Notes under the pieces: generated by a model
The model's input: the letters and a program-made list of their open reading frames with translations, nothing else
Database searches by the model: none
Told to the model about the DNA's origin: nothing
Made by a program: the position numbers and the translations under genes
In this document: positions 20,433 to 37,967 of the stretch, piece by piece
How the letters are laid out: each line of letters begins with the position of its first letter
Position numbering within the stretch: position 1 is the first letter of the stretch
Assembly: GCF_000420325.1 (NCBI RefSeq)
Contig: NZ_ATUS01000005.1
Location: 124,001 to 188,000, forward strand
Origin: Spongiibacter tropicus DSM 19543
GTDB taxonomy: Bacteria; Pseudomonadota; Gammaproteobacteria; Pseudomonadales; Spongiibacteraceae
Direction of reading: 5' to 3'
Length of the DNA stretch: 64,000 nucleotides

Positions 20433-22631
<2,199 letters not shown>

Positions 22632-22714: not shown

Positions 22715-23962
22715 CTAGTTGTTGAGCTGCTGGTGAAGTGCCTGACGGTAGGCACTGATACCGGGAATCAGTGCAATCAGCAAACTGCATCCCAGGACAG
22801 CGAGCAGGTAGCTGATGGCCGTGGGCGACAGCAGCGTGCCATCGAGAAACAGGCTGAAGCGTTCAGCCAGCAGCTCACCCGCGACGCTCGTGCTCAACCA
22901 TAGCAAGGCGACGGCGAGCAGTGACGCGCCCAGACTGATTATCAGTGCCTCCATTTCAATCAGCGCCAGCAGGAACCACGGCGAGGCACCGATGGCGCGC
23001 AGCACGGCCATTTCCCGCTGGCGTTCGCGGATCGATGTCAGCAGCATCGCCGCCAGTCCCAGCAGCGCGGCCAGCAGGACCAGCGCGGAAATCAGCCGCA
23101 GGCTTGTCTCCATGACTGACATCATGTCCCAAAGCTGGCTCAGCGTAACACCGGGCAGAATGGCTTGCAGGGGCTCGCCGCGATAGTTGTTGATCTGACG
23201 CTGCAGTCCGAAGGTGGCCATTTTGGATTTAAGGCCCACCATAAACGCGGTGATATTGTCGGGGGTTTCGCTGTGGTGCTGGTTCGCCTGATTGCCGAGG
23301 TGGCCCGGCAGTTTCACGCCGTGCTGCCATCCCTCGTGAATGGCTTCAATGGCGCCGAGACTGACATACAGGGCCCGGTCTACCGGCGTCCCCGTGGGCT
23401 TGAGAACGCCGCTGACGCTGAAGGGTTTGTCGTCGTGTTTGCTGAAACTGGTCGTGCCCATGCCGTGGGCCAGCACCAGTTGGTCGCCCAGATGGTAATT
23501 CAAGTCGCGGGCCACATCGCTGCCCAGCACCACATCGAGGGTCTTGCTGAAGGCTTCACCGCTGCCGAAGCGCAGTGATTCTCCTTGAGCGTAGCGAAAG
23601 TGCTGGAAATACGCTGCCGTGGTGCCGACCACGCGGTAGCCTTTGTGGGAATCACCCAGTGAGAGGGGAATGGTCCAGTCTACCGCCGGGTTGTCGGCAA
23701 TCGACTGGTAACTCTGCCAGCGAACATTATTGGTGGCATTGCCCAGGTGGAACACTGAGTACAGCAGCAGGTTCACGTCGCCGGTGCGAGCTCCCACAAT
23801 CAGGTCGACGCCGGACACGGTATTGCCAAAGCTGTTTCGGGCCTGGTGGCGGAGCTGTTCCACGCCCAGCAGCACGAAGACGCTGACGGTAATGGCGAAG
23901 AGAGTGAGCAGTGCCGATCCTTTGCGGCTGAGCAGGCTTTGCCAGGCGAGGCGCAAAAACAT
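22715..23962 (-). CDS. ABC transporter permease, FtsX/MacB type (ZrgABCDE-like zinc locus)
   Basis: A 415-residue permease with one N-terminal helix (LLTLFAITVSVFVLLGVEQL), a large periplasmic domain (about 45-265) and three C-terminal helices. These include an AALLGLAAMLLTSIRERQREMAVLRAIGA FtsX signature spanning about residues 300-330. Its ATG overlaps the stop of the ATPase gene (ATGA), so the two form one transporter. FtsX-type pairs usually move lipoproteins or drive periplasmic events. A pair like this, together with DUF3299 and DUF2796 genes, resembles the Vibrio cholerae ZrgABCDE zinc-acquisition locus, which is the basis for the role proposed. The substrate route is not known. Confidence 0.85.
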   Translation of the reverse strand: MFLRLAWQSLLSRKGSALLTLFAITVSVFVLLGVEQLRHQARNSFGNTVSGVDLIVGARTGDVNLLLYSVFHLGNATNNVRWQSYQSIADNPAVDWTIPLSLGDSHKGYRVVGTTAAYFQHFRYAQGESLRFGSGEAFSKTLDVVLGSDVARDLNYHLGDQLVLAHGMGTTSFSKHDDKPFSVSGVLKPTGTPVDRALYVSLGAIEAIHEGWQHGVKLPGHLGNQANQHHSETPDNITAFMVGLKSKMATFGLQRQINNYRGEPLQAILPGVTLSQLWDMMSVMETSLRLISALVLLAALLGLAAMLLTSIRERQREMAVLRAIGASPWFLLALIEMEALIISLGASLLAVALLWLSTSVAGELLAERFSLFLDGTLLSPTAISYLLAVLGCSLLIALIPGISAYRQALHQQLNN

Positions 23963-24627
23963 CAGGACTGCCCTCCGGCACAGTTGAGCTGTTCGAGATT
24001 ATCCGCCCGTGAAAAGTGTCGGGCGAGTTCGGCGTCGTGACTGACAAAAATCAGCGCGCTGTTCTGCTGCTTAACCTGCTCCAGAAGCAGATTCATAAAG
24101 CGGTCGCGGTTGCGCGCATCCAGCGATGAGGTGGGTTCATCCACGATCAGCAGCTCGGGCTGATGAATCATGGCCCGCGCAATCGCGACCCGCTGTTGTT
24201 GACCAATGCTGAGATGTGAGGCCCGCTGCTTGAGTGCTATCTCCAAATCCAGTGCACTCAGCATGGCCTTAATCTGGTCAATGCTGCAGGGGCGATGGGC
24301 GAAATGTGGGGCCAGCCGGATGTTATCGATGACGCTCAGATAGGGAATCAGGTTGAACTGTTGAAAAACCACACCCATATGCCGGGCACGAAAGGCATCG
24401 CGCCGACGTGAGGAAAGGGTGTTCAGTGCGGTGTCGAGCACCCTTAGCGAACCGCTGCTGGGCAAGAGGATGCCACTCAGCAGATTCAACAGGGTCGATT
24501 TACCGCTACCCGAGGCGCCGTGCAGAAACACTGTCTCGCCAGCATCCACCGACCAGTGGGGAATATTCAGTACCGACTGGTCACTGCCGGGGTAGTGAAA
24601 GCGCAGACGGTCGAGGTGAACAAGCAA
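23962..24627 (-). CDS. ABC transporter ATP-binding protein (LolD/MacB type) of the zinc locus
   Basis: A 221-residue ATPase. Walker A is GASGSGKST (about 38-46), the Q-loop is in GVVFQQFNLIPYLSV, the signature is SHLSIGQQQRVAIARA, and Walker B is LLIVDEPTSSLD. The start is a TTG at 24627 (LVHLDRLRFHYPG), with AGGAA seven bases upstream; no better ATG exists at the right place. The gene is the first of a two-gene unit with the permease and is divergent from the DUF3299 gene. The Zur-box-like palindrome at 24678-24695 lies 50 bp upstream, so zinc starvation should induce it. Confidence 0.88.
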   Translation of the reverse strand: MLVHLDRLRFHYPGSDQSVLNIPHWSVDAGETVFLHGASGSGKSTLLNLLSGILLPSSGSLRVLDTALNTLSSRRRDAFRARHMGVVFQQFNLIPYLSVIDNIRLAPHFAHRPCSIDQIKAMLSALDLEIALKQRASHLSIGQQQRVAIARAMIHQPELLIVDEPTSSLDARNRDRFMNLLLEQVKQQNSALIFVSHDAELARHFSRADNLEQLNCAGGQS

Positions 24628-24677
24628 GGCACAATTCCTATGCAGCGGTGTCAGAGAATCGGTATCGGCGATGGTCG

Positions 24678-24695
24678 ATCATGATATAACATATC
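24678..24695. promoter_or_regulatory. Zur-box-like palindrome between ATPase and DUF3299 genes
   Basis: The 18-mer ATCATGATATAACATATC differs by four bases from the palindrome GATATGTTATAACATATC; three mismatches are in the first three bases, so the core ATGATATAACATATC differs by only one. A second such site is at 32233-32250. It lies between two divergent genes of a zinc-type locus, and zur is nearby. Confidence 0.65.
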
Positions 24696-24760
24696 GCGCT
24701 TCAAGGATCACCGGGTGTCAGCAAGGACACCTGAAAATCGGCATAAAACAGGGGAAAGGC

Positions 24761-25333
24761 GTGTCGCAACTGAAAATGCTGTGGGTACCGCTGCTGCTCG
24801 CTGCCAGTTTGATGGCAGCGAGCGCGCAGGCTGCAGACTATCGAACGATTGAGTGGATTGAGCTGATGCCCGCCGACGATCTGGAGGCGTTTCTGAATCC
24901 GCCCGAATCGCTTAACGACATTGAGGACGGTACCGAGGCTGACCAGATTGCCGGGCAACTCGACAATCGCAGCGCGGTCGACGTTGACGATACGCGCTAC
25001 AAGCAAGCCTTGGTTTCGACCCGTGTGATTGATGCCTTTGACGGTCAGGCGATCAGGGTGCCGGGGTTTATCGTGCCGCTGGAGCATGACGCGCAGCAGC
25101 GAGTAACCCGCTTTTTTCTGGTTCCCTATTACGGCGCCTGTATTCACGTGCCACCGCCACCGCCGAACCAGATTATTTATGCCGAATACCCCAAAGGCTT
25201 TAAGCTTGAATCGCTGTATGAGCCGTTTTGGATGTCGGGCACCATGCGCACCTCGCTGACAGAGAATGAAATGGCCACCTCGGCCTATGCCATGACGGTA
25301 GATCGTCTTGATCCCTACGAGGACGAAGAGTGA
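24761..25333 (+). CDS. DUF3299 periplasmic protein (zinc locus)
   Basis: A 190-residue exported protein starting at GTG 24761, which has AGGGGA five bases upstream; the frame is open earlier but runs through the Zur box. A signal peptide (LWVPLLLAASLMAASAQAAD) is followed by a DUF3299 domain. Typical stretches are TIEWIELMPADDL, IRVPGFIVPLEHD, and FFLVPYYGACIHVPPPPPNQ with a conserved Cys-His near residues 126-128. The family is of unknown function and is recurrently linked to FtsX-type ABC transporters and zinc genes. It is convergent with the COG0523 gene, with only two bases between stops. Confidence 0.8.
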   Translation: MSQLKMLWVPLLLAASLMAASAQAADYRTIEWIELMPADDLEAFLNPPESLNDIEDGTEADQIAGQLDNRSAVDVDDTRYKQALVSTRVIDAFDGQAIRVPGFIVPLEHDAQQRVTRFFLVPYYGACIHVPPPPPNQIIYAEYPKGFKLESLYEPFWMSGTMRTSLTENEMATSAYAMTVDRLDPYEDEE

Positions 25334-25335
25334 TG

Positions 25336-26337
25336 TCAGCGGCTGACGACACAGTCCAGTAGCGCCGCTTCCAGACCTTCGAAGGCGGCAGTGTCGCTGC
25401 TGATGCATTCAATGCGGCTGTCTAGCGTGTCATCCAACTCAAATTCGCTGAGCACCTCGTCGGCCTTGTTATAGGCCACGATGCCGCGCGCGGTAATGAA
25501 GACGCCCTTGATCCGCTCGGCCCTGATCCCGAGTAACAGCTGGTAAAGCCTGTCGGCGTCAAAGGTCCAGGCGGGATCAAAAACCCAGCCCCGGCTGAAG
25601 AAACTTTCGCCCTGATTGTCGACGCTCACATAGCCCTGTTCCGGCAGGGCGTGGGTGTCGAGTGTCGCGGGGCTCTCGCCGTGGTGGTGATGCTGAGCCG
25701 TGTCGCCGGCCGCTGTCGCCGCGCCATTCAGCCAATCTGTGTCCACCTGACCGTGCGCCACGGGGTAGACCGCTTTTTCATTTAGATCAACGATCTGTTC
25801 CAGAAAGGCCATCAGTGCGGGCAGGTCCCCATCGCTGTAGAGATCGGCTTTGTTCGCGATGATCACATCGGCAATGGCCAGCTGCTGGCGAAAGCTGGCG
25901 TGCTGGGTATAGCGTTCGTCGTGGACTTTGCGGGCGTCGACCAGTGCCAGTGTGCTCTTGAGGTCGAGCACCTCGCGATAGTGCTCCGCACTCAGTGACT
26001 CCAGGATCTCGCGGGGGTGGCCAAGTCCGGTGGGCTCAATCAGCAGGCGGTGAGGGCGGGCGGCGGTGAGCAGGCGGTTGAGCGCAATCTGCATGGGCAA
26101 GCCCGCGGTACAACACATACAGCCGCCCGGGACTTCGCGAACAAATAAACCATTGGCCTCCGACTCGCTGCCGTTGTACAGACTCCCATCGATACCCACT
26201 TCGCCAAACTCATTCACCAGTACGGCCCAGCGCTCATCGGTGGGCTTCTGTTTAAGCAGCTCTAGAATCGCGGTAGTTTTACCCGCGCCGAGAAAGCCGG
26301 TAATGACATTGCAGGGAATGGCGTGAAGTGCAGACAT
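25336..26337 (-). CDS. COG0523 (CobW/ZNG1-type) metal-chaperone GTPase
   Basis: A 333-residue G3E GTPase. The P-loop is GFLGAGKTT (about 14-22), the CxCC metal motif is GGCMCC (Cys73, Cys75, Cys76), the switch/G3 region is LLIEPTGLGHP, and NKAD is the base-recognition motif. A histidine run (HHHHGE) near residue 217 and a CobW C-terminal domain follow. Such GTPases deliver zinc to client proteins when zinc is scarce. It is last in the minus-strand zinc operon, after zur. A perfect hairpin at 26351-26374 abuts its ribosome-binding site. This is one of two COG0523 proteins here; the other (30608-31816) is of the ZigA type. Confidence 0.9.
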   Translation of the reverse strand: MSALHAIPCNVITGFLGAGKTTAILELLKQKPTDERWAVLVNEFGEVGIDGSLYNGSESEANGLFVREVPGGCMCCTAGLPMQIALNRLLTAARPHRLLIEPTGLGHPREILESLSAEHYREVLDLKSTLALVDARKVHDERYTQHASFRQQLAIADVIIANKADLYSDGDLPALMAFLEQIVDLNEKAVYPVAHGQVDTDWLNGAATAAGDTAQHHHHGESPATLDTHALPEQGYVSVDNQGESFFSRGWVFDPAWTFDADRLYQLLLGIRAERIKGVFITARGIVAYNKADEVLSEFELDDTLDSRIECISSDTAAFEGLEAALLDCVVSR

Positions 26338-26350
26338 AAGCAGGGTCCTT

Positions 26351-26374
26351 GCCGTCGGGTTACTGCCCGACGGC
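26351..26374. other. Perfect intercistronic hairpin between zur and the COG0523 gene
   Basis: GCCGTCGGG and CCCGACGGC form a 9-bp perfect stem with a 6-base loop. It lies 13 bases upstream of the COG0523 ATG and close to its AGGA site. There is no U-tract, so it is more likely an mRNA processing, stability or translation element than a terminator. Confidence 0.6.
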
Positions 26375-26419
26375 GATTGGCGGTGTTGTCATAGCTATAG
26401 GTGTATTAGCTGGGAGTAT

Positions 26420-26881
26420 TCAGGCGGCCAGGTTGGCGCAATCCTGACAGAGGCAATGCAGTTCCAGTTGCGGACTTTTCAGCACATAGCCCGCCTGACT
26501 GACATTGTCCTTCAGTGTATTGATCAAATCTTTTTTAATGCCGATTTCCTTCACCGTGCCGCATTCATCGCAGATCAAAAACTGCGGGACTTCGTGTCGG
26601 TGATCGCAACTGATATGTGAGCAGGCCACATATTTGTTGGCAAGGTGAAGCTTATGGACCAGATTTTCACCTTCCAGAAAATCCAGAATACGGTACACGG
26701 ACATGGGGGGAATCGGCTCGTCGAAGGTTTTGCCGCAGTAGTCGGCCAGCTCGTAGGCCGACATCGCCTTGTTGCTTTCCAGTAATCCCGACAGCACCCG
26801 CTTGCGCTTTTCCGTCAGCCGGGCACCGTGAGCACGGCAGTTGGCTTCGGCGCGATCGAGAATTTGGGCGGTGGTGTGCAT
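26420..26881 (-). CDS. zur: Zur, zinc-responsive Fur-family repressor
   Basis: A 153-residue Fur-family protein from ATG 26881 (an upstream ATG at 26905 would overlap the preceding gene and gives eight extra residues). The N-terminal winged helix (RLTEKRKRVLSGLLESNKAMSAYELAD, MSVYRILDFLEGENLVHKL) is followed by the dimerisation domain. That domain has two Cys pairs, FLICDECG and LHCLCQDC, for the structural zinc, and His residues (CSHISCDHRHE) for regulatory zinc. The neighbours are all zinc-starvation genes and Zur-like boxes occur at 24678 and 32233, so Zur rather than Fur is the right call. It probably represses its own operon when zinc is plentiful. Confidence 0.9.
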   Translation of the reverse strand: MHTTAQILDRAEANCRAHGARLTEKRKRVLSGLLESNKAMSAYELADYCGKTFDEPIPPMSVYRILDFLEGENLVHKLHLANKYVACSHISCDHRHEVPQFLICDECGTVKEIGIKKDLINTLKDNVSQAGYVLKSPQLELHCLCQDCANLAA

Positions 26882-26888
26882 GATGGGC

Positions 26889-27419
26889 TTACCTGAAGGA
26901 AACATTGTCCCGGCTATTATCCAGTGTTAACGCGCCCTGTCGACCTCCAACAAGCCATTGCACCGACAGTAAGTTCAGCGCAGGGTATTTGCTCAGCAGA
27001 TCAGTTTGCAGACCGCGCAGTGTTGATGGGCGTTCACAATGGAAGCGGTAGCGCGCCTCAATATCCCTGTGAGCAACATCGCGGTGCTCGTCCGAGCCGG
27101 GCTCGAATCGCTCGTCGATATTGGTCCACTGCTCACGCAGTTGGCACTGGCCGCCTTGCAGTTGCAGGCGCTGCTGGACATCGCCCAGTTCTTTGCGCAG
27201 CGCAGTGAGCCGACGTTTCTCCGCCTGGCTGTTTGCGCGGTGCTCGAAGCCAAGCAGATTCATGGCCGCCGAGTCGAGATGGATCTCGAGTGCTTTTCCT
27301 TCCACCGCCACGGTCAGTGTGGCCTGACCGTGAACATGTGCACTCGGCAAGGCCGGCTCATCAGCGTGTGTCGCCAGAACTAGCGTCAACAGGCCAATCA
27401 GCCCGCTGGTCTTGAGCAA
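26889..27419 (-). CDS. DUF2796 periplasmic zinc-binding protein (ZrgA-like)
   Basis: About 176 residues from a TTG at 27419. The signal peptide reads LLKTSGLIGLLTLVLATHAD, and mature DUF2796 starts with SAHVHGQATLTVAVEGKALEIHLD, containing the conserved HVHG. The rest has a coiled helix (AEKRRLTALRKELGDVQQRL) and histidines in DEHRDVAHRDIEARYRFHC. In Vibrio cholerae the DUF2796 protein ZrgA is the periplasmic part of a zinc uptake system. The frame stays open upstream to 27566, but that part overlaps the receptor gene. The start codon is therefore uncertain; the TTG was chosen because it gives a clean signal peptide. Confidence 0.82.
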   Translation of the reverse strand: MLKTSGLIGLLTLVLATHADEPALPSAHVHGQATLTVAVEGKALEIHLDSAAMNLLGFEHRANSQAEKRRLTALRKELGDVQQRLQLQGGQCQLREQWTNIDERFEPGSDEHRDVAHRDIEARYRFHCERPSTLRGLQTDLLSKYPALNLLSVQWLVGGRQGALTLDNSRDNVSFR

Positions 27420-27434
27420 GCGCTGACGCCGCCA

Positions 27435-27452
27435 CGGGGAGTCGAATCCCCG
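27435..27452. other. Intercistronic hairpin between receptor and DUF2796 genes
   Basis: CGGGGA, loop GTCGAA, TCCCCG: a perfect 6-bp stem in the 52-base gap. On the minus strand the loop TTCGAC resembles a tRNA T-loop, but no cloverleaf can be built around it. It may be a processing or stability element. Confidence 0.45.
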
Positions 27453-27471
27453 CTGCCGCGTCGTGCAGGGC

Positions 27472-29892
27472 TTAGAAGCTGCCACGCAGACCAATGCTGA
27501 TATTCCGGCCAGGAAGGGGAGCCAGGTCTTTGAGGAATGAAGAGTGGACTCGCGCTTCTTCATCACTCAGGTTGCTGCCCTTGACGTAGACGGTCACATC
27601 GCCGTTGCGCGTGTCGCCGAGCCCGGCGAAGGTGTACGCCAGCTCTGCATCCATCAGCGTGTAGGCGCCGGTGGTGGTTTCGAGTTCGGCTACGCGATCC
27701 TGCTCAAAGTAGCGGCTCATGCCAAACGCGGCATTCCAGCCGTTAAGCGCATAGCGCAGTTCGCCACCCAGACGCGCGGGGGGAATACGAGGCAGGTTGC
27801 CACCGTCTTTAAGCTTGCCGCGAGTGGTGTCGGCCATCAGTGTCAGTTTCAGCGGGCTGGCGAGTTGCCAGGCCAGTTGAGCCTCTACACCGTAAAGGGT
27901 GGCGTCGGCCTGCTGGAAGACGTAGACCGGGAAGTCGTCATGGCCGTGTTCGTGCTCCTCTTCGCCGCCAGCTTCCTCTTCGTGATCGTGACCACTGATA
28001 TCGCCACTGCTGTACCCAGTGCTTTGCTGATAGTAGAAATCATCAATTTCGTTGTAGAAGAAGTTGAGTACCCAGGCGATGTTGCCGGAGTGTTTGCGCA
28101 GGCTCAGGTCGATATTGTTGGACACTTCCTCAGTGACATCGTCGTGGTAGTGGAAGTGGGGGTGGTCACCCGCATGCAGATCGAAGACCGCACCCACTTC
28201 AAACGCGCCACTGCCAATGTGCGGGCCATAGGAGAACAGCTCGGCAGCACTCGGTGCGCGCTGGGCGTGGGTCAATGAGATGCCGGCGTTATAGCCTGGT
28301 GTGAATTCCCAGACCAGTCCGGCGGACAGACTGATGGGGGTGAACTCCATATCGTCGAAGTGTTGCAGGGTGTGGCTGTCAGCCTCGTCTTCGGCGTGGT
28401 GATCTTCCCATTCAATCGGGTCGGCTTTGATGTTGACTTGCTCCACACGCGCGCCCAGTTGCACCAGCACATCGCCAATATGCTTCTCTTCCATCAGGGC
28501 GATGGCGTAGCTTTCCGTTTTCGCCGGTGGGGTAAAGGCTTCCTCGCCAATGGCTTCAAAGTCGGAATGCGTCACTTCCACAGACACCGCGCCTCGCCAG
28601 CCTGCCATCTCCTGCATCAACAGGTCTACGCGGGCCTGCAGGGTTTCATTGCGGAAAATGGTGCCGACTTCACCGCCCTCAATCTCCTTGTGTTCGTAAT
28701 CGGTATAGCCGATGCGGGTGTTAATGCCGCTCAGCAGGGGCGTATCCAGCGACAGTTCGCTGATCAGCTGCCAGCGGTCCTGCACCAGATCGGATTGCAC
28801 GGCCACGTCTTCTTCATGCTCTTCGTGTTCTTCCTCGCCCTCGTGTTCTTCTTCCTCGTGAGCGTGGCTGTGGCCGGGAATACCGTTCAAGCGCTCCAGG
28901 CGACCGTAGGACAGGCCCACATAGCCGTTATCCAGCAACCAGCTACCGCCAATATTGAAGCCCTTGCTTTCCGAGGCGCTGTTTTCCAGCACACCGTCGC
29001 GGCCTTCCTCATGCTCCTCTTCGTGCTCGTCTTCATGGTCATGCTCTTCCTCAAGCGCTGCAGCGCCGGGAATTTCGTAGTTATTGCCGTCGCGTTTGAA
29101 GCCGTCTATGTGGACGGCAAACTGCTCGGTGCCGCCGGTGTAGGCGAAGGACGCCTCGTTTTCGTCGGCAACGCTGTTGTGGCCGATGGCGAAGGCGCCG
29201 CGCTCTTCACTGGAAGACGGCACGCGGTCGTCGACAATATTGATCACACCACCAATAGCACCAGAGCCGTAGAACAGCGTGGCGGGGCCGCGCAGAATTT
29301 CAATTTGCTCGGCAGTGCTGGCCTCAGTGGATACCACGTGGTCGGGGCCGACCCGCGAGGCGTCGCTGACGTCCAGGCCATTCTGGGTAATCAACACGCG
29401 AGGGCCGTTAAGGCCGCGAATAATGGGGCTGCTGGCAACCGGACCAAAATAACTGGAGTGCACGCCCACTTCATTTTTCAAGGTTTCGCCCAGCGTTGAG
29501 GCCTGCTTGCGGCGCAGGTCTTCGCCGGAAACGACCGTCACCGGCTGAGCGGACTCCATCACAGAGATATGCAGCGGCACGGCGGTCACGTCGACTTGCT
29601 CAATTACCGAGCGGTAGAGTTTTACCGTCAGTGTGCCGCGGTGTTCACCGTGCAGGTGAAGCGTTTCGTGACTGTAGCCGGGCGCGTTGATATGCACCTC
29701 GTCAACCTGGCTGTCGTCCACGTTGAGTTTGAAATTACCGAGGCTGTCGGTCGTTGCGGTTTGCTGGCTGCCCAGCAGCTCGATGGTGGCGCCGGCGACC
29801 GGTTTACCGTTGGCATCCTGCACCTGCCCAGACAGGGCATGTCCCAGGCTGGAGAGCGTTAGCAGTGCGAGAAAGCTCGCAGAACGTTTCAT
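27472..29892 (-). CDS. znuD: ZnuD-like TonB-dependent receptor for zinc, with His/Glu-rich loops
   Basis: An 806-residue receptor. A signal peptide is followed by a carboxypeptidase-regulatory-like (CarbopepD) domain at about 20-90 (SGQVQDANGKPVAGATIELLG), then the plug (IIRGLNGPRVLITQNGLDVSD, ILRGPATLFYGSGAIGGVINI) and a barrel ending ISIGLRGSF. Three loops are remarkably rich in His and Glu (for example EEEHDHEDEHEEEHEE, HSHAHEEEEHEGEEEHEEHE and EEEAGGEEEHEHGHDD), as in Neisseria ZnuD, where such loops capture zinc. Position inside a Zur/ZigA/DksA2 operon supports zinc import across the outer membrane. The gene symbol is by resemblance. It lies 50 bp after the DUF1826 gene. Confidence 0.88.
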   Translation of the reverse strand: MKRSASFLALLTLSSLGHALSGQVQDANGKPVAGATIELLGSQQTATTDSLGNFKLNVDDSQVDEVHINAPGYSHETLHLHGEHRGTLTVKLYRSVIEQVDVTAVPLHISVMESAQPVTVVSGEDLRRKQASTLGETLKNEVGVHSSYFGPVASSPIIRGLNGPRVLITQNGLDVSDASRVGPDHVVSTEASTAEQIEILRGPATLFYGSGAIGGVINIVDDRVPSSSEERGAFAIGHNSVADENEASFAYTGGTEQFAVHIDGFKRDGNNYEIPGAAALEEEHDHEDEHEEEHEEGRDGVLENSASESKGFNIGGSWLLDNGYVGLSYGRLERLNGIPGHSHAHEEEEHEGEEEHEEHEEDVAVQSDLVQDRWQLISELSLDTPLLSGINTRIGYTDYEHKEIEGGEVGTIFRNETLQARVDLLMQEMAGWRGAVSVEVTHSDFEAIGEEAFTPPAKTESYAIALMEEKHIGDVLVQLGARVEQVNIKADPIEWEDHHAEDEADSHTLQHFDDMEFTPISLSAGLVWEFTPGYNAGISLTHAQRAPSAAELFSYGPHIGSGAFEVGAVFDLHAGDHPHFHYHDDVTEEVSNNIDLSLRKHSGNIAWVLNFFYNEIDDFYYQQSTGYSSGDISGHDHEEEAGGEEEHEHGHDDFPVYVFQQADATLYGVEAQLAWQLASPLKLTLMADTTRGKLKDGGNLPRIPPARLGGELRYALNGWNAAFGMSRYFEQDRVAELETTTGAYTLMDAELAYTFAGLGDTRNGDVTVYVKGSNLSDEEARVHSSFLKDLAPLPGRNISIGLRGSF

Positions 29893-29942
29893 ACAAAAAC
29901 TCCTAGTTGAATCATTAATCCGGCAGCGCTGAGCGCGACCAT

Positions 29943-30611
29943 TTAAGCAAAATCCAGGGTGAGTAACAGTCGTGTTTCACCATTCGGCACGCAGGGAGAG
30001 CGGTGCACCAGTCCCGCGCCCTCATTGCCCGCCCATTGTTCGCCCTTCAGCAGCGCCACATCGCCCGCGGCTAACTGGCAGATAGCTGCTGGTGACGGAT
30101 ATAAGCCGCTGTCGGCATCGCTAAGTCCCTGGCTACCCGCGCCAAGCTTGCGGCGATCCACTACCTCGTGGGGTAGCCACTCGGTTGCGGGGCCGGTGTA
30201 GGTACAAATCAGGCGACAGGGTACGTGGTCAATGTGAAACTTTGGGCACATCTCTGATCGCAGGGCATTCATCCTGAGTCCACAGCTGCGCAGATCGAAC
30301 AGGCAGCAGAACATCTCGGTGAGTAGGAGAAGATCCGCGGCCAGATGCGGATAGGCAGCGATGCCCGGCAGGGCGCGGTCGACATCGCTGGCCGCTCTCA
30401 GTACCACCCGGTGGTCACTCAGCCCCCCGGCGCGCAGCAGCGCACGGGCGTCTTCCTGCAGGAGCGGTGGCGACTGCTGGCGCCGCCACACGGCCATATT
30501 CACGTCGTCCTGATAAATTTCGGTCAGGCGTTCCGGCGAGTGGCCCAGTACGGCGTGCCGGAAGCTTGCTGTTGCCGTCGTGACAGGGCTTGTGTGCTGA
30601 GCGGCAATCAT
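29943..30611 (-). CDS. DUF1826 domain protein of the zinc regulon
   Basis: About 222 residues from ATG 30611, which overlaps the zigA stop in an ATGA. The diagnostic stretch is [27 protein letters not shown] around residues 125-152, given here in part: [13 protein letters not shown] and [11 protein letters not shown]. The His-x-Asp-His/Cys arrangement looks like a metal site. The function is unknown. The family is recurrently encoded next to COG0523 GTPases and under predicted Zur control, as here. It is soluble, without signal peptide or membrane helix. Confidence 0.82.
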
Positions 30612-31816
30612 GCTCCGTCTCCCCAACGTGGAAACGGATCGGGCAGTTGCTGCCAGTAAGCCCGTCCGGCCAGCAGTTCTTCCTCGCTGAGCAGGCAGTT
30701 GTCCAGTGCTTCCGTAATCGTTCGAGCGTCCAGGTTCTGTCCGATAAATACCAGCTCCTGACGCATATCGCCGAAAGGTTCCTGCCAGTTTTTATGGATC
30801 GAGGCGAGATAGTCCTCATCTTCAGGCCAGCGGTCTCTGGGGACGGCTTTCCAGAACAGTCCTGCGAAACCATAGCGCGCCATGCCGCCAGCCTGACTCC
30901 ATTGCCCGGCGAACTCGGGGCGGCTGGCCAGCCAGAAGTAGCCCTTGGAACGTATCAGCTTTCCCTGGATGTCTTTGCTGTGCAGAAAGTCGTAAAACTT
31001 TTGCGGATGAAAGGGGCGGCGCGCGGTGTAACTGAAACTGCTGATGCCGTATTCCTCGGTTTCCGGTACATGCTCACCGCGCATTTCTTTCAGCCAGCCC
31101 GGCGCCTGCTGAGCGCGTTCGAAGCTGAATTTGCCCGTGCCCAGAATGCGTCCAGCGGGAATGTCACCGTTGCTTACCGGCAGGATGTCCGCTTCTGTAT
31201 TGAGCGTTTTGATCACCGCAATAAGGCGTTGCAGAGTGGCTTGGTCCACCAGATCCGTCTTGCTGATCAGAATAATATCGGCGAACTCCACCTGGTCCAC
31301 CAGCAAGTCAGCCACACTGCGCTCGTCAGCCTCACCCAGATGTTCATCCGTTTCCTGCAGGAATTTCGCCTCGTCGTAATCGCGCAGAAAATTCACGGCA
31401 TCAACGACGGTCACCATGGTGTCCAGGCGGGCGACATCGGACAGGCTCACGCCTTGTTCATCGGCAAAGGTAAAGGTTTCCGCAACGGGGAGAGGCTCTG
31501 AAATGCCCGTGGACTCGATCAACAGGTAGTCAAAACGTCCTTCATCGGCCAGTCGGCGCACTTCCAACAGCAGGTCTTCGCGCAGGGTGCAGCAAATACA
31601 GCCGTTGCTCATTTCCACCAGTTTTTCTTCGCTGCGGTTGAGGGCAACGTCATTCTGCACGGCGCTGGCGTCGATATTGATCTCGCTCATATCGTTGACA
31701 ATCACCGCGACCCTGCGGCCTTCCCGGTTATTCAGTACATGACTGAGAACGGTGGTTTTCCCTGCGCCGAGAAAACCGGAAAGTACCGTTACGGGCAGGC
31801 GTTCAGCGTTTGCCAT
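30608..31816 (-). CDS. zigA: ZigA-type COG0523 GTPase
   Basis: A 402-residue GTPase from ATG 31816; the frame extends upstream through dksA2 but that part is a shadow. The P-loop is GFLGAGKTT (14-22), the CxCC motif is NGCICC (Cys73, Cys75, Cys76), and [15 protein letters not shown] is the G3/switch region. SKTDLV is the base-recognition motif and a CobW_C domain runs over about 270-375 ([23 protein letters not shown]). This matches the larger ZigA/YeiR-like branch induced by zinc limitation in Acinetobacter and Pseudomonas. It overlaps dksA2 by 14 bases upstream and DUF1826 by four downstream, so the three are tightly coupled. Confidence 0.92.
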
Positions 31817-32165
31817 AATGCTTTTCCTTCTCTTCCATTTGCACTTTAACTTCCGCGCAGTACTCGGCTGTGGGGCGCGCGCGAAGTCGCTCGAGGCCGA
31901 TCTCTTCACCGCTCTCCAAGCAGTAGCCGTACTCGCCATCGCGGATGCGCCGAAGTGCTGCGTCGATTTTGCGCAGCAGGCGGGTTTCCCGCTCCACGGT
32001 GCGCAATGCCAGCCGCGTGTCTTCCTCGTGCTGTGCCCGATCGGCTTCGTCGCCGGGTTCAGCGCGTTCGCCCAGTGTGTTTTGTGCCTGCCGGATCGTT
32101 GCCAGGGTGTTTTCGCGCAGGGCATTGAGCTGGCGAGAAAACGCCGCGAGGTGGTCTGGGTTCAT
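31803..32165 (-). CDS. dksA2: DksA2-type zinc-independent DksA paralogue
   Basis: A 120-residue DksA/TraR-family protein from ATG 32165, which has GGGAG just upstream (16 further in-frame codons have no ribosome site). The N-terminus is a coiled coil. The C-terminal zinc-finger region keeps only two of four cysteines: Cys82-x2-Ser85 and Cys103-x2-Val106. In Pseudomonas aeruginosa DksA2, the same loss makes the protein fold without zinc, letting it replace zinc-containing DksA during starvation. It acts with ppGpp on RNA polymerase. It is the first gene of the operon, 68 bp downstream of the Zur-like box at 32233-32250. Confidence 0.9.
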
Positions 32166-32232
32166 ATAGCTCCCGTCGCGATCTCGGTGTTGTCTGGCAA
32201 AGGTTTCGGGCATCGGTCCGGTAGTCGACTCA

Positions 32233-32250
32233 GATATGATACAACATATC
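32233..32250. promoter_or_regulatory. Zur-box-like palindrome upstream of dksA2
   Basis: GATATGATACAACATATC, two mismatches from the palindrome GATATGTTATAACATATC, inside the larger inverted repeat TATGATA-N5-TATCATA (32235-32253). It lies 68 bp before the dksA2 ATG and shares most of its core with 24678-24695. It probably controls the whole operon from dksA2 to the COG0523 gene. Confidence 0.75.
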
Positions 32251-32368
32251 ATAATTCGCCAAAGATGGATTGTGCAATGGTTTTGTCGAAGGAATTCAGT
32301 GGCAGGAAAGGGAGGTCGGCAAAGGCGTGCAGTTACGACCACCCTACAAATAAGAATCATTAGTATTT

Positions 32369-32387
32369 GATAATGACAACCATTGCT
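32369..32387. promoter_or_regulatory. Fur-box-like site upstream of the TonB receptor at 32467
   Basis: GATAATGACAACCATTGCT matches 14 of 19 bases of the classical Fur box (GATAATGATAATCATTATC), with a further GAATCATTAGTATTTG stretch just upstream. It lies 80 bp before the receptor start and suggests iron control, in contrast to the Zur box on the dksA2 side of the same gap. Confidence 0.5.
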
Positions 32388-32466
32388 GATAGTGTGATCT
32401 AGCGTTGGGTGATCGTCCCTCGCAACCCCCGGTTTCCGCTATTCATAAAAGTGAATCAACTTGCCC

Positions 32467-34443
32467 ATGGCATCGACCAGTCAGAATCGTTTTCGTCGAG
32501 GCGTGTTTTGTGCGCCCGTATTTTTCGGCATCTATTGCTTAGCAAGCTCGACCGGCGCTCTGGGCGACAGCGCGTCCTCCTCAGCGGACACGCGGCCAAG
32601 GCTGCTGGAAACCGTTGTCGTGACGGGGACGCGCACCCCGTACTCGTTGGCCGATGCGCCGGTAGAGGTTCAACTGATCGGCCCGGAGGATATCGAGGCT
32701 TCCGGCGCGAGGGATGTCGCGGAGTTGCTGGAGCGCGAAGGAGGTGTGTATGCCAGTCGCGAATCCGGGCGCGGGACCTCCATTCAGATTCAGGGTTTGT
32801 CTTCCGAGCATGTGCTGGTACTGGTTAACGGGCGGCGGATGATCGGTCGCATTAATGGTGCGATTGATCTCAGCCGTTTTCATATTGCCGATATCGAGCG
32901 CGTGGAGATTGTAAAAGGACCGTCCTCGGCGCTGTATGGCGGCGATGCGCTGGGTGGGGTGGTGAACATCATTACCCGCCGAGGTGCGGATGGCGAGCCG
33001 GGCGGCGTCGTCACCCTGAGAGGTGATAGTGAGGGCAACGGCGATGCCTTTGCGCGTGCCGACCTCGTCGCCGATTCGGTCTCGGCCTCGGTCTCGGCGG
33101 GCCACAGCCGTCTGGCGGGGTTCGATCTGGATGACTCGACCTTCGCTGAAGATGGTGTAAGCGGAGAGTCCAGCTTTGGCAGCCTCAGTGGACGCTGGCA
33201 GGCCAGTGAGGGTTTTGATCTGGGCTTTGATGCGTCCTATTCGCTGGACGATACCGAGCGGCGTGATGGTGGCACTGGCGGTAAGCAATACGCCACCTAC
33301 AAGCAAATTGAAGAAGTGAGGGTGGGGGTTCAGCCGCGTATTCACTTTGACGACAGCAGTCTGACACTGGATATGTATTACAACCGCTACGCTGACCAGT
33401 TCCTGCAGGACCAGTTGGGCAGTACAGAAAATACGATTGACGAAGAAACCATCAACGAACTGCTGTTTGGCGGCGGGCAGTGGGATGTCTCTCCCGGCTG
33501 GCTGAATACCCTGCCGGGCCAGCACACGCTGTCACTGGGGGCCGAGTTTCAGTTGGAGCGCCTGGACGCTGACCGGCTGGGGCAATCCGCCGAGCGGGAT
33601 CGGCAGTCATTGTATGTACAGGACGATATTCTGCTCGGCAATGAGCGACTTCATCTGATTCCCGGTGTGCGCTTTGATCGCGACTCCCAGTTTGGTCAGC
33701 AGGTTTCGCCCAAGCTGTCACTGCGCTATGACATCAGTGACAGCCTGTTTACCCGGCTCGGTTTCGGGCGGGGTTATCGGCCCCCCAGTTTCCGCGAGCT
33801 GTTGCTGCGCTTTGATAACCCGGCCGTGGGTTACCGGGTAGAGGGCGAGCTGGATCTCGAACCCGAGAAAAGCACCGGCTTTAACGCTGGTCTCACCTGG
33901 CTGGCAGGTGAACAACATAGCGTGTCGATTTCGGCCTTCCACAATGATGTGGACGAGCTGATTGAAATTATTCAGGTCGAGAGCACGCCCACCATTCTGT
34001 TCAGTTACCGCAATGTGGCGCATGCCACGGTCTCCGGTGTCGATGTGCAATGGACCTGGCAGGGGCAGACATGGCCGCTGCGGCTGGAGCTGGGTTATGG
34101 CCACCTGTGGAGTGAGGACGAAGCTACCGGCGACGAGTTGTCGGGGCGTCCCGAACAGCGCGTCAATCTTGCCGTGTCGCTGGACAAACCACGCTACTCA
34201 TTGGGATTGCGTGGCACCTGGACCGGTGAGCGCGTATTTGCGGTTGAGCTGGACAGTGGCGGCGCACCCACCAGTGCCGGCGACGCAGAGGCCTATGCGC
34301 TGGTCGATGCGCGAGCCAGTTGGAAAGGCTTTGCATCGCTGCTGTTATCGCTGGGGGTGGACAATATGACCGACGCTGGTGACCCCCAGTACCTGCCCAT
34401 CCAACCCCGTAGTTATTACCTGGAAGTCAGTTGGAGTTTGTAA
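32467..34443 (+). CDS. TonB-dependent receptor, heme/siderophore type, paired with HmuY-like lipoprotein
   Basis: A 658-residue receptor from ATG 32467 (a TTG two codons earlier is possible). A signal peptide precedes a TonB box/plug start LETVVVTGTRTPYSLADAPV. The plug has IQIQGLSSEHVLVLVNGRRMIGR (in two halves, IQIQGLSSEHVL and VLVNGRRM) and VEIVKGPSSALYGGDALGGVVNI. The barrel contains YRPPSFRELLLRFDNPAVGY and ends YYLEVSWSL. The plug type is that of the HmuR/BtuB/FecA branch. Its stop overlaps the start of the HmuY-like gene (TAATG), so the two form a unit, most likely for heme or a related iron chelate. A Fur-like site precedes it. Confidence 0.9.
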   Translation: MASTSQNRFRRGVFCAPVFFGIYCLASSTGALGDSASSSADTRPRLLETVVVTGTRTPYSLADAPVEVQLIGPEDIEASGARDVAELLEREGGVYASRESGRGTSIQIQGLSSEHVLVLVNGRRMIGRINGAIDLSRFHIADIERVEIVKGPSSALYGGDALGGVVNIITRRGADGEPGGVVTLRGDSEGNGDAFARADLVADSVSASVSAGHSRLAGFDLDDSTFAEDGVSGESSFGSLSGRWQASEGFDLGFDASYSLDDTERRDGGTGGKQYATYKQIEEVRVGVQPRIHFDDSSLTLDMYYNRYADQFLQDQLGSTENTIDEETINELLFGGGQWDVSPGWLNTLPGQHTLSLGAEFQLERLDADRLGQSAERDRQSLYVQDDILLGNERLHLIPGVRFDRDSQFGQQVSPKLSLRYDISDSLFTRLGFGRGYRPPSFRELLLRFDNPAVGYRVEGELDLEPEKSTGFNAGLTWLAGEQHSVSISAFHNDVDELIEIIQVESTPTILFSYRNVAHATVSGVDVQWTWQGQTWPLRLELGYGHLWSEDEATGDELSGRPEQRVNLAVSLDKPRYSLGLRGTWTGERVFAVELDSGGAPTSAGDAEAYALVDARASWKGFASLLLSLGVDNMTDAGDPQYLPIQPRSYYLEVSWSL

Positions 34444-35816: not shown

Positions 35817-37241
35817 TCAGACGGTGTCATCCGCTCGGTAGGGCACCGCCGCCTGTAACTGGTCGTTGATATCCAGTGGCCGACCGGCCTGCGGAAACGC
35901 CCGCTGCGTGCAATCGTTCCGAGGGCAGACGCGACAGCCGGGGCCGATCGGCGTGACCAGTGCTTTGCTGTTCAAGTCCAGGCCATCGGCGTAAACCAGC
36001 CGGTGTGCATGCTGTAATTCGCAGCCCAGCCCAATGGCAAAGCGTCGCACTCGGGCATGATAGCTGCCGCCGCCCTGAGTCACTTCCCGCGCAATGCAGA
36101 AAAACTGCTGGCCATCGGGCATCTGTGCAATCTGCGTTAACACCCGGCGGTCGGTGCCGAAGGCTTCGTGGACATTCCACAGGGGGCAGGCGCCGCCGGT
36201 TCGGGCAAAGTGAAAACTGGTTGCGCTTTGTCGCTTGGAAATATTGCCCGCCTGATCCACCCGCACAAAATAGAAGGGAATGCCTTTTTGTCCGCTGCGC
36301 TGCAAGGTGCTCAAGCGGTGGCAGACCTGCTCGGTAGAAACGCGAAAGTGCTGACATAGCGCGTCGATATCGTAGCGCTGTTGTTCGGCCACCTGCATGA
36401 ATGCGCCGTAGGGCATCAGCAGAGCGCCAGCAAAGTAGTTAGCCAGGCCAATGCGCGCCAGACGTTGTGTCTGCTCACTGCTGAAGTCGGCGTCGGCACA
36501 CAGTAGGCTGATCTGCTTGTCCTGATCGAGCAACGCAATCTGGCTGGCCATCTGGAAGCACTGCTGAAAACGCTGGAGCTGGCTGCTGAGAAAAAGCTGG
36601 CGAGTGTTTGAGTCGTAGTGCCGCAGCGCGCCGTTGTGGGGAGGCTGATCGATATTGACGGTGACGTCGAAAGCGGTGCGCAAATAGTCCTGCAGTTGCT
36701 GATGGAGTGTCAGCCTGTCGAAGTCCTGCTGCCGGTAAAGCTGTTCGGCGGCCTGATCCAACAGGTCGATGTAGTTATTGTGCCGGTAAAAATAATCCCG
36801 CACTTCCTCGTGGGGCAACGGCGACAGGTGCGCTGTGTGCTGCTCACCGTAGAAGCGGCTGACCAACTGCTGGTATTCCTCCTGTAAGCGTGAGAAACGC
36901 TGATACAGCCGGGTAAAGCTGGTGGCGAGCTCCGGCTGCTGTTGAGTGAAGGCCTCTACCTCCTGCCACTGAATCTGGCTGTCGGCCAGAAACGGGTCTT
37001 TCAGCGCCAGATTGATATCGGCGGCCAGTTGCGCATCGCTGTTGTCTGCAAACTGCGCCACGTCGATATTGAAAACATTGCTGAGTTTGATCAGCACGGA
37101 GGCGCTGACCGGGCGCTGATTGTTTTCGATCTGGTTCAGGTAGCTGGGCGACAGGCCCAGCTTGCTCGCGCATTGCATTTGGTTGAGCTGGTGCTGCTCG
37201 CGCAGGCGTCGGATTCTCGGCCCGACAAACAGTTTCTTCAT
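35817..37241 (-). CDS. Short-chain fatty acyl-CoA regulator (ScfR/PrpR/RamB-type) transcription factor
   Basis: A 474-residue regulator from ATG 37241 (the upstream in-frame extension is intergenic DNA). Residues 1-65 are an XRE helix-turn-helix (IRRLREQHQLNQMQCASKLGLSPSYLNQIENNQRPVS in parts). An IrrE/ImmA-like domain follows at about 150-290, then a DUF2083-type C-terminus with a cysteine cluster (CRVCPRNDCTQRAFP). Family members RamB of Corynebacterium and PrpR of Mycobacterium bind TTTGCAAA sites and control propionate, methylcitrate and glyoxylate genes, sensing acyl-CoA. The same motif lies upstream of this gene (37268-37380) and of prpC (60681-60883), so autoregulation and control of prpC-acnD are likely. 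Confidence 0.9.
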   Translation of the reverse strand: MKKLFVGPRIRRLREQHQLNQMQCASKLGLSPSYLNQIENNQRPVSASVLIKLSNVFNIDVAQFADNSDAQLAADINLALKDPFLADSQIQWQEVEAFTQQQPELATSFTRLYQRFSRLQEEYQQLVSRFYGEQHTAHLSPLPHEEVRDYFYRHNNYIDLLDQAAEQLYRQQDFDRLTLHQQLQDYLRTAFDVTVNIDQPPHNGALRHYDSNTRQLFLSSQLQRFQQCFQMASQIALLDQDKQISLLCADADFSSEQTQRLARIGLANYFAGALLMPYGAFMQVAEQQRYDIDALCQHFRVSTEQVCHRLSTLQRSGQKGIPFYFVRVDQAGNISKRQSATSFHFARTGGACPLWNVHEAFGTDRRVLTQIAQMPDGQQFFCIAREVTQGGGSYHARVRRFAIGLGCELQHAHRLVYADGLDLNSKALVTPIGPGCRVCPRNDCTQRAFPQAGRPLDINDQLQAAVPYRADDTV

Positions 37242-37267
37242 GGCGCTCTCGCTACAAGGACATCGGC

Positions 37268-37380
37268 TTGCAAATACTTCGCTTTTTTGCATACTGATTT
37301 GCGAAGAATTTCCTATTAAACCCTTTAACAACAATAGCTTATGTGATTTTGCAATGTTTGCAAATACTATGATTGCGAAC
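37268..37380. promoter_or_regulatory. Cluster of TTTGCAA/TTGCGAA motifs upstream of the ScfR-type gene
   Basis: Four stretches: TTGCAAATACTTCGC at 37268-37282, ATTTGCGAAGAATT at 37297-37310, TTTTGCAA at 37347-37354, and TTTGCAA-N9-TTGCGAA from 37357 to 37379. They sit between the regulator and the divergent thioesterase and match the TTTGCAAA-type sites bound by RamB/PrpR. The same words occur before prpC. Confidence 0.65.
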
Positions 37381-37455
37381 TTTGCTGCGGCACTTGTCTG
37401 CCTAAAGCGGGTTTTGAACCGGGTCGTGTATCGAATTCGACAGGCTGTCAGTGTT

Positions 37456-37479
37456 GCCCGGCGTTTGCCGGGCTTTTTT
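37456..37479 (+). terminator. Intrinsic terminator just upstream of the thioesterase gene
   Basis: GCCCGGC, loop GTTT, GCCGGGC, then TTTTTT. It is oriented to end plus-strand transcription 21 bases before the thioesterase ATG, yet no plus-strand gene precedes it; the gene upstream is divergent. It may end a short leader RNA or act as an attenuator. Confidence 0.8.
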
Positions 37480-37499
37480 CTTTGATTTCGGAGGGGATC

Positions 37500-37967
37500 A
37501 TGAACGGTCAACAGCAGCAGCGTTTGCAGGCGTTTTCTCAGCAGGCCATCACGGCTATTCCCTTGCTGCAGTCTATGGATGTTCGCTTCACGGCGTTTAG
37601 CGATTACAGCTTGCGCGTCGATATGCCGCTGGCGCCGAACATCAATGACAAAAACACCGGTTTTGGCGGCAGTATCGTCGCGCTGGCAACCACGGCAGGT
37701 TGGGCCATGCTGCAGCTGCTGATGCAGGGCTTGTCACGGGATTATCAGGTTCTGATTGTCGAGAGCCATATCCGTTATCTGGCGCCAGTAACCGCGAATT
37801 GCTATGCCTTGGCATCTGTTACCGAGTCGGCGATGTGTGCGTTCTACAAAATGCTCAATCAGCGCGGCTCCGGGCGAATGACCATTCAGACGGGGATTGA
37901 GCAGGACGGCAGACAACTCGCTGTTTTTACGGGGACTTACAAAGTGACGCAGCGCTTACCCGGATAA
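37500..37967 (+). CDS. YiiD_C-type hotdog thioesterase
   Basis: A 155-residue protein from ATG 37500 with the strong ribosome site GGAGGGGA. It matches the putative thioesterase domain found at the C-terminus of E. coli YiiD (PF09500). Landmarks are IPLLQSMDVRF, MPLAPNINDKNTGFGGS with the conserved Asn/Asp-Lys segment, and ESHIRYLAPVT. It probably hydrolyses an acyl-CoA or acyl-ACP in the cytosol. Divergence from an acyl-CoA-sensing regulator and the shared motifs at 37268-37380 suggest it belongs to that regulon. Confidence 0.8.
   Translation: MNGQQQQRLQAFSQQAITAIPLLQSMDVRFTAFSDYSLRVDMPLAPNINDKNTGFGGSIVALATTAGWAMLQLLMQGLSRDYQVLIVESHIRYLAPVTANCYALASVTESAMCAFYKMLNQRGSGRMTIQTGIEQDGRQLAVFTGTYKVTQRLPG

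Follow-up and report, generated by a model that had tools for sequence, protein, structure and literature searches.

A DUF1826 protein in a Zur-type zinc-starvation island of Spongiibacter tropicus as a candidate Fe(II)/2-oxoglutarate oxygenase

What does a DUF1826 protein do among zinc-starvation genes, and by what route would such a gene set move zinc? Both questions are raised by a 9.5-kb island in Spongiibacter tropicus DSM 19543. The window, i.e. the whole stretch of 64,000 nucleotides that was analysed, is G000:C5:124001-188000 from a genome of 3.95 Mb in 7 contigs. Most of the island is already known: it is largely a gene set described in other bacteria, and it represents an extended version of the Zrg-type locus. 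The new element is the reading of DUF1826 as an oxygenase, and DUF1826 is the part of the island that deserves work at the bench. We consider it probable, with good confidence, that the island is a Zur-repressed zinc-starvation locus of two transcription units in which DUF1826 acts together with the COG0523 GTPase ZigA as an Fe(II)/2-oxoglutarate (2OG) oxygenase.

The best AlphaFold2 (AF2) model of the DUF1826 protein has a predicted local distance difference test (pLDDT) value of 85.6 and a predicted TM-score (pTM) of 0.83. When this model was compared with the PDB by Foldseek, 209 matches were obtained at E≤0.001 (best E 2.9e-6, probability 1.00). The best 50 of these 209 are all enzymes of the Fe(II)/2OG superfamily, as judged from their titles or, for entries whose titles leave the superfamily unnamed (e.g. 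AviO1, anthocyanidin synthase, HalA), from what we take these proteins to be. The viral structure library yielded the same fold class: 15 of the 50 listed matches are named as 2OG-type, PHYH, PKHD, P4H or AlkB proteins, and the remaining ones are an oxidoreductase domain protein, an endonuclease V, and unnamed or uncharacterised proteins.

Conservation was counted in 44 sequences selected by match position and not by motif (47 places minus L051 and L053, which are off-place loci at contig ends, and the partial L054). An HxD...H triad is formed by H126 (43/44), D128 (44/44) and H203 (44/44), and R214, 11 residues past H203, is retained in all 44 sequences. The order is HxD, about 75 residues, H, 11 residues, R. 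The HxD...H motif followed by Arg is the residue order of Fe(II)/2OG oxygenases, in which an Arg at such spacing past the distal His is the usual anchor of the 2OG carboxylate. C122, R133, R204 and S205 are also invariant, and P206 is kept in 43/44. The model places strands at 132-139, 185-189, 202-204 and 214-220; that the three triad residues come together in space is presumed. Median pairwise identity in an overlapping set of 43 sequences is 38%; this set was picked by a motif filter and hence was not used for the triad count.

Several observations weigh against an oxygenase. The TM-scores relative to the query lie in a moderate range (0.33-0.54 over the best 50 PDB matches), and the other four AF2 models have pLDDT from 78.6 down to 54.7. 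Sequence searches gave no related PDB sequence and no recognisable similarity to a known 2OG oxygenase, and no oxygenase family is among the Pfam matches. One member (L048) has N in place of H126. With moderate TM-scores and four of the five models weaker, we rate the double-stranded beta-helix fold, as a prediction, as very likely and activity as an Fe(II)/2OG oxygenase as somewhat likely. A protein with the same jelly-roll and His/Asp site could instead serve as a chaperone, store or sensor of zinc or another metal, in keeping with its placement in zinc operons and with the description of PA5534 as an annotated metallochaperone of unknown function (PMC13083405; this and the other papers are cited for the parts of their text available to us). 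A metal holder would not need an Arg such as the invariant R214, and we regard this alternative as unlikely. The sequence-only reading had listed DUF1826 as having no known function. This agrees with the literature covered, most subscription journals lying outside it, and no earlier 2OG assignment was found there; conservation and predicted structure now give the family a testable function.

The genomic evidence links DUF1826 to ZigA. Among 281 genomes of the class, DUF1826 is present in 26 and ZigA-type proteins in 29, with both in 21 (Fisher p 1e-20; the genomes are not independent). The ZigA-type threshold of 365 bits was set after the gap in scores had been seen, and the count includes frame-broken copies in G270 and G149; at NCBI's own cut-off 21 genomes have ZigA, and DUF1826 is present in 15 of these. 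By coordinates, the two genes are at most 200 bp apart in 13 of the 21 genomes having both. The association is incomplete, a point against the proposal: DUF1826 occurs without ZigA in 5/26 genomes, and ZigA without DUF1826 in 8/29. These genomes contain 32 DUF1826 places, two of which had no locus and were left out. We examined 37 DUF1826 loci, comprising 17 nearest-gene loci and 20 fetched regions. A COG0523 gene lies on the same strand within 250 bp in 20 of them, and 34 have a further zinc-type gene no more than 6 kb away; as to the remaining three, the DUF1826 reading frame was lost to the overlap filter in L127 and L134, and L143 has no zinc-type neighbour. One locus (L137, genome G272) carries two different DUF1826 genes in tandem, adjoining zigA. 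Clustering of the neighbours provided no substrate candidate for DUF1826.

The same genes appear in published work. A figure from 2009 already shows DUF1826 next to COG0523 genes under Zur control (PMC2770081). In Pseudomonas aeruginosa, PA5536-PA5534 are dksA2, zigA and DUF1826, and are zinc-responsive (PMC9431628); in a proteome study whose authors set the limit at p<0.1, PA5534 was more abundant under zinc depletion in both data sets, the p values being 0.42 and 0.056 (PMC11761036). Homologous units respond to zinc as well (PMC9817125, PMC11761036, PMC9431628).

In its full form, the proposal is that DUF1826 represents a previously undescribed family of Fe(II)/2OG oxygenases, under Zur control and paired with ZigA, which would either metallate DUF1826 or be served by it; the enzyme would hydroxylate a protein, an RNA or a small molecule, so that iron chemistry replaces or spares a zinc function. 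We see this form as evenly poised. To our knowledge, few clients of COG0523 GTPases have been established. DUF1826 is a concrete candidate with a simple assay: it is conserved next to such a GTPase, has an iron/2OG-type site, and belongs to a unit whose response to zinc starvation is seen in P. aeruginosa as well (PA5534). If the proposal is true, zinc sparing is linked to iron-dependent oxygenation.

The setting of DUF1826 is given in Table 1. All ten zinc-type genes announced by the sequence-only reading are in place and intact according to the list of open reading frames and to Pfam and NCBIfam scans of the window (10/10), and gene content together with the palindromes described below supports its interpretation as a Zur-type zinc-starvation island with ZigA and DksA2. 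Chance assembly is unlikely, since the gene set recurs in other genomes. Seven genes from dksA2 to cobW2 form a run on the minus strand with gaps from -14 to 82 bp. The zrgE gene is convergent to this run, and zrgCB is divergent from zrgE. The mechanical start of the DUF3299 reading frame (24671) crosses the box between zrgC and zrgE, and the likely start is GTG 24761; TTG is the probable start codon of both zrgA and zrgC.

Table 1. Genes and palindromes of the island (positions in the window)
Feature	Position	Strand	Evidence
zrgB-like FtsX/MacB-type permease, 415 aa	22715..23962	-	Pfam FtsX 61.7 bits, MacB_PCD 44.1 bits
zrgC-like ABC ATPase, probable TTG start	23962..24627	-	Pfam ABC_tran 111.7 bits
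Zur-box-like palindrome, putative divergent promoter zrgCB / zrgE, 3 mismatches	24678..24695	.	pattern scans
zrgE-like DUF3299 protein, probable GTG start	24761..25333	+	Pfam 157.7 bits; PDB 4hsp E 1.7e-31
second COG0523 GTPase (CobW2, CobW-type)	25336..26337	-	Pfam cobW 151.9 bits
Zur-like FUR-family regulator (ZurI)	26420..26881 or 26905	-	Pfam FUR 48.7 bits; NF008646 91.6 bits (cut-off 167)
zrgA (ex-DUF2796), probable TTG start	26889..about 27416	-	Pfam ZrgA 130.1 bits; PDB 7ahw E 1.5e-16, 8ezw E 5.4e-12
ZnuD-like TonB-dependent receptor	27472..29892	-	NF038289 406.7 bits (cut-off 950); loop composition
DUF1826	29943..30611	-	Pfam 204.8 bits; AF2 model, Foldseek, conservation
ZigA, COG0523 metallochaperone-type GTPase	30608..31816	-	NF038288 700.5 bits (cut-off 600, exceeded)
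dksA2-type paralogue	31803..32165	-	Pfam, NCBIfam, zinc-cysteine comparison
Zur-box-like palindrome, 68 nt upstream of dksA2, 1 mismatch	32233..32250	.	pattern scans

Two other details of the sequence-only reading hold too. Of its four zinc cysteines, the DksA paralogue has retained C1 and C3, with S at C2 and V at C4; the comparison used what we take to be the positions of these cysteines in Escherichia coli DksA. The loops of the receptor are rich in His, Glu and Asp (42 H, 84 E). NF038289 is its best NCBIfam match, and the shortfall in score makes it ZnuD-like only. CobW2 has a CMCC motif and an HHHH stretch and gives no CobW_C match. A hairpin, GGGGATTCGACTCCCC, lies within 27416-27471, between the stop codon of the znuD-like gene and the start of zrgA.

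Is the island controlled by Zur? The pattern GATATGWTATAWCATATC, with up to three mismatches, has two matches in the window and none in 100 dinucleotide shuffles. The match at 24678-24695 is 51 nt from the zrgC start and 66 nt from the likely GTG of zrgE. Genome-wide, GATATGATATAACATATC with up to three mismatches occurs in three places, and the pattern read backwards in none. The third palindrome (G000:C1:1145283-1145300, L023) is located upstream of a TonB-dependent receptor gene, the first 474 codons of which are nearest to CirA, below the cut-off; this receptor is possibly another member of the island regulon. The classical Zur consensus has no match at either island site (24678, 32233). 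ZurI exceeds the Pfam FUR threshold, and palindromes of the island type are present at the predicted promoters in pattern scans, which is consistent with repression of the island by Zur in this strain. Two points count against the overall reading of the island: the Zur, ZrgA and ZnuD proteins are all under the NCBI curated cut-offs, and two other genomes (G333, G409) keep the island with its boxes and show no island-type Zur.

The genome encodes a second Zur on contig C1, together with znuC, znuB and a divergent ZnuA-type gene (G000:C1:1909474-1911482, L003 and L021), and the box at this locus, TGTAATATTATAACA, is of a more classical type. The regulon might therefore be split between two Zur lineages, island-type Zur acting on the island palindrome and znu-linked Zur on the znu box. 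The two proteins are 30% identical, and 18 chosen genomes hold both types in seven cases, with about 30% identity, the island type only in five and the znu type only in six. In favour of a split, a search of 13 znu-linked loci found TGNAATATTATAACA at 9, and the islands carry GATATGWTATAWCATATC-like sites. Against a strict split, the other Zur may read both boxes, because G333 and G409 retain the island palindromes in the absence of island-type Zur; moreover, in G338 the second Zur is on a different contig than zrgA. We treat the split as a tentative option, with somewhat less than even weight.

The part of the island concerned with transport was described by the sequence-only reading as ZrgABCDE-like. 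ZrgA, the FtsX-type permease, the ABC ATPase and the DUF3299 gene are found together, so that zrgA, B, C and E are present; the label is nevertheless loose, as no match to zrgD (DUF2607) was found among the ten proteins scanned, small reading frames not having been searched for it. The window ZrgA scores below the NCBI ZrgA equivalog cut-off (77.6 vs 185 bits) and above that of Pfam ZrgA (130.1 vs 27.4), and it matches the solved PA4063 (7ahw). The claim that DUF3299 was newly placed in a zinc context did not survive, given that this gene is zrgE/PA4066, already linked to zinc. It is induced 76-fold in zinc-starved Vibrio parahaemolyticus, where all five zrg genes are strongly induced, with DUF3299 as zrgE and DUF2607 as zrgD (PMC9817125), and PA4066 has a solved structure (PMC9820375), which we read as 4hsp. 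Knockout of zrgE alone in Vibrio cholerae had no effect on growth with chelators in the available text of PMC9820375; the same source reports that low-zinc growth is supported jointly by zrgABC and znuABC and that zrgA is essential to the zrg system. In the DUF3299 protein, C127 and H129 are conserved in 40 of 41 aligned sequences.

It was correctly noted that the ABC pair, an FtsX/MacB_PCD permease with an ABC ATPase, does not resemble ZnuABC. The accompanying statement that the zinc route is open needs amendment, as published work has posed the question before and gives conflicting answers, two in number. The cargo is disputed between zinc import (Vibrio) and export of pyochelin-cobalt by a MacB exporter, as the P. 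aeruginosa cluster was read (PMC11481552), and the direction of ZrgBC is thus contested, to the disadvantage of import. The permease has H166, H176, H209 and D195 conserved in 41/41 aligned sequences; a weak alignment with LolF shows no matching His around the conserved His positions. Its AF2 model, built from four sequences, has pLDDT 48.7 and was not used for fold searches.

If ZrgBC were off the zinc import path, it would be an exporter of the MacB type that moves a metal chelate (pyochelin-cobalt) and is needed in zinc starvation for some other reason. In the znuA zrmB background, mutation of PA4065 led to accumulation of pyochelin and cobalt, and the available text reports that the zinc content did not change to a relevant degree (PMC11481552). 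The FtsX and MacB_PCD domains of ZrgB suit such an exporter. TIGR01803, which we take to represent the PchB-type enzyme, exceeds its cut-off in 4 of 195 genomes of the order, three of them among the 95 with ZrgA (the set has no known-producer control), and has no match in the genome of S. tropicus itself. Hence pyochelin export is improbable as a general role of ZrgBC, unless other chelators stand in. Clusters recurring in at least 4 of 38 regions within 4 kb of zrgBC are only zrgA/B/C/E, COG0523, MerC-like, Zur, ZnuD-like and HisI-like genes; no MacA-type adaptor recurs by this measure. Furthermore, growth of Vibrio zrgA mutants is impaired when zinc is low, for V. cholerae in the znuA background (PMC9820375, PMC9817125). 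We give the exporter little credence and favour ATP-driven periplasmic zinc handling by ZrgBC that would aid import.

Replacement of ZnuABC by Zrg was considered and rejected, as most ZrgA genomes also hold ABC-3 permeases, which are matched in 173/195 genomes of the order. The 95 ZrgA genomes include four with no ABC-3 match (G344, G412, G452, and G471, the latter judged by its absence from the list of 173) and two with weak matches only (G399 and G458, E 2e-6 and 1e-4); all six carry ZIP-family proteins. Because genomes lacking a strong match are so few, Zrg normally coexists with ABC-3 permeases. ZrgA genomes with no ABC-3 (ZnuB-type) permease offer a natural setting for asking whether ZrgBC can import zinc on its own.

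ZrgA is matched in 98/195 genomes of the order, with 95 over the cut-off, and 40 ZrgA regions were fetched, five from the same genus. The neighbourhood proposed from the sequence (DUF2796, DUF3299 and FtsX) recurs: zrgA, B, C and E are together in 37/40 regions, with zrgE divergent from zrgC in 18 and on one strand in 19. The three incomplete regions are L094, L112 (both cut by a contig end) and L121. In the class, DUF3299 is over the cut-off in 39/281 genomes, ZrgA in 36/281 and both in 32 (Fisher p 6e-31); one genome with no ZrgA match has three DUF3299 matches (G270:C4), of which two are separated by about 1 kb. Accessory genes are associated with the divergent zrgE/zrgC layout. Counts among the 40 regions, with the divergent ones in brackets, are 12 (11) for cobW2, 10 (9) for DUF1826, 6 (6) for zigA, 5 (4) for dksA2, 7 (6) for ZnuD-like and 10 (8) for island-type zur. 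The window is therefore a recurrent extended type and not a one-off. Islands of relatives (L086, L088, L104, L132 and others) also contain a MerC-like membrane protein (PF03203 by representative; 18/52 neighbourhoods), a conceivable metal transporter, and a HisI-like enzyme (PF01502 by representative; 10/52), two members of which we read as RibA-like. Neither gene is found between zur and cobW2 in the window.

Outside the island, the katG catalase-peroxidase gene lies directly to the left (20448-22631). To the right of the second box is a TonB-dependent receptor gene (32461-34443), nearest to heme/B12 receptor models and below their cut-offs, beside a stretch at about 32350-32380 that we presume to be Fur-box-like. 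It is followed at 35817-37511 by a gene for a RamB-like regulator (acetate metabolism; 530 bits, under the cut-off of 700).

Taken together, the island would work as follows. Unit 1, read from the box at 32233, would comprise dksA2, zigA, DUF1826, the znuD-like gene, zrgA, zur and cobW2, and unit 2, read from the divergent box at 24678, zrgCB on one side and zrgE on the other. As zinc falls, the repressor would release both boxes. Zinc brought through the outer membrane by the ZnuD-like receptor would be retained in the periplasm by ZrgA and ZrgE, and ZrgBC, a MacB/FtsX-type ABC machine, would spend ATP on periplasmic work helping zinc inwards. Zinc-free DksA2 would replace DksA, and ZigA and CobW2 may pass the remaining zinc to priority clients. 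DUF1826 would most likely be a cytoplasmic Fe(II)/2OG oxygenase and a partner of ZigA: it could receive metal from ZigA as a client, or it could hydroxylate a target of the pathway that the two share.

Four known systems may be compared with the island. Like the window, zrgABCDE of V. cholerae and V. parahaemolyticus and PA4063-PA4066 of P. aeruginosa combine ZrgA, an ABC ATPase, an FtsX/MacB-type permease, DUF3299 and a Zur-type box; in the window, however, the layout is split, with zrgA in one unit and zrgCB and zrgE divergent, zrgD is absent from the genes identified, and ZrgA has, on inspection of its sequence, almost none of the long His-rich loop. ZnuD of Neisseria and Acinetobacter is the closest model of the receptor, which differs in its lower score and in an N-terminal CarboxypepD_reg domain. 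With the Fe(II)/2OG oxygenase superfamily (nearest structures: rice DAO 6kun, AviO1 4xaa, the BesD homologue 7jsd and HygX 4xca), DUF1826 shares the predicted jelly-roll, the triad and the following Arg; it differs in having no detectable sequence relation and in its setting in a Zur operon. Finally, PA5536-PA5535-PA5534 of P. aeruginosa has dksA2, zigA and DUF1826 in the same order as the window, whereas in the window this trio is joined in one apparent unit to the ZnuD-like receptor, zrgA, zur and a second COG0523 gene.

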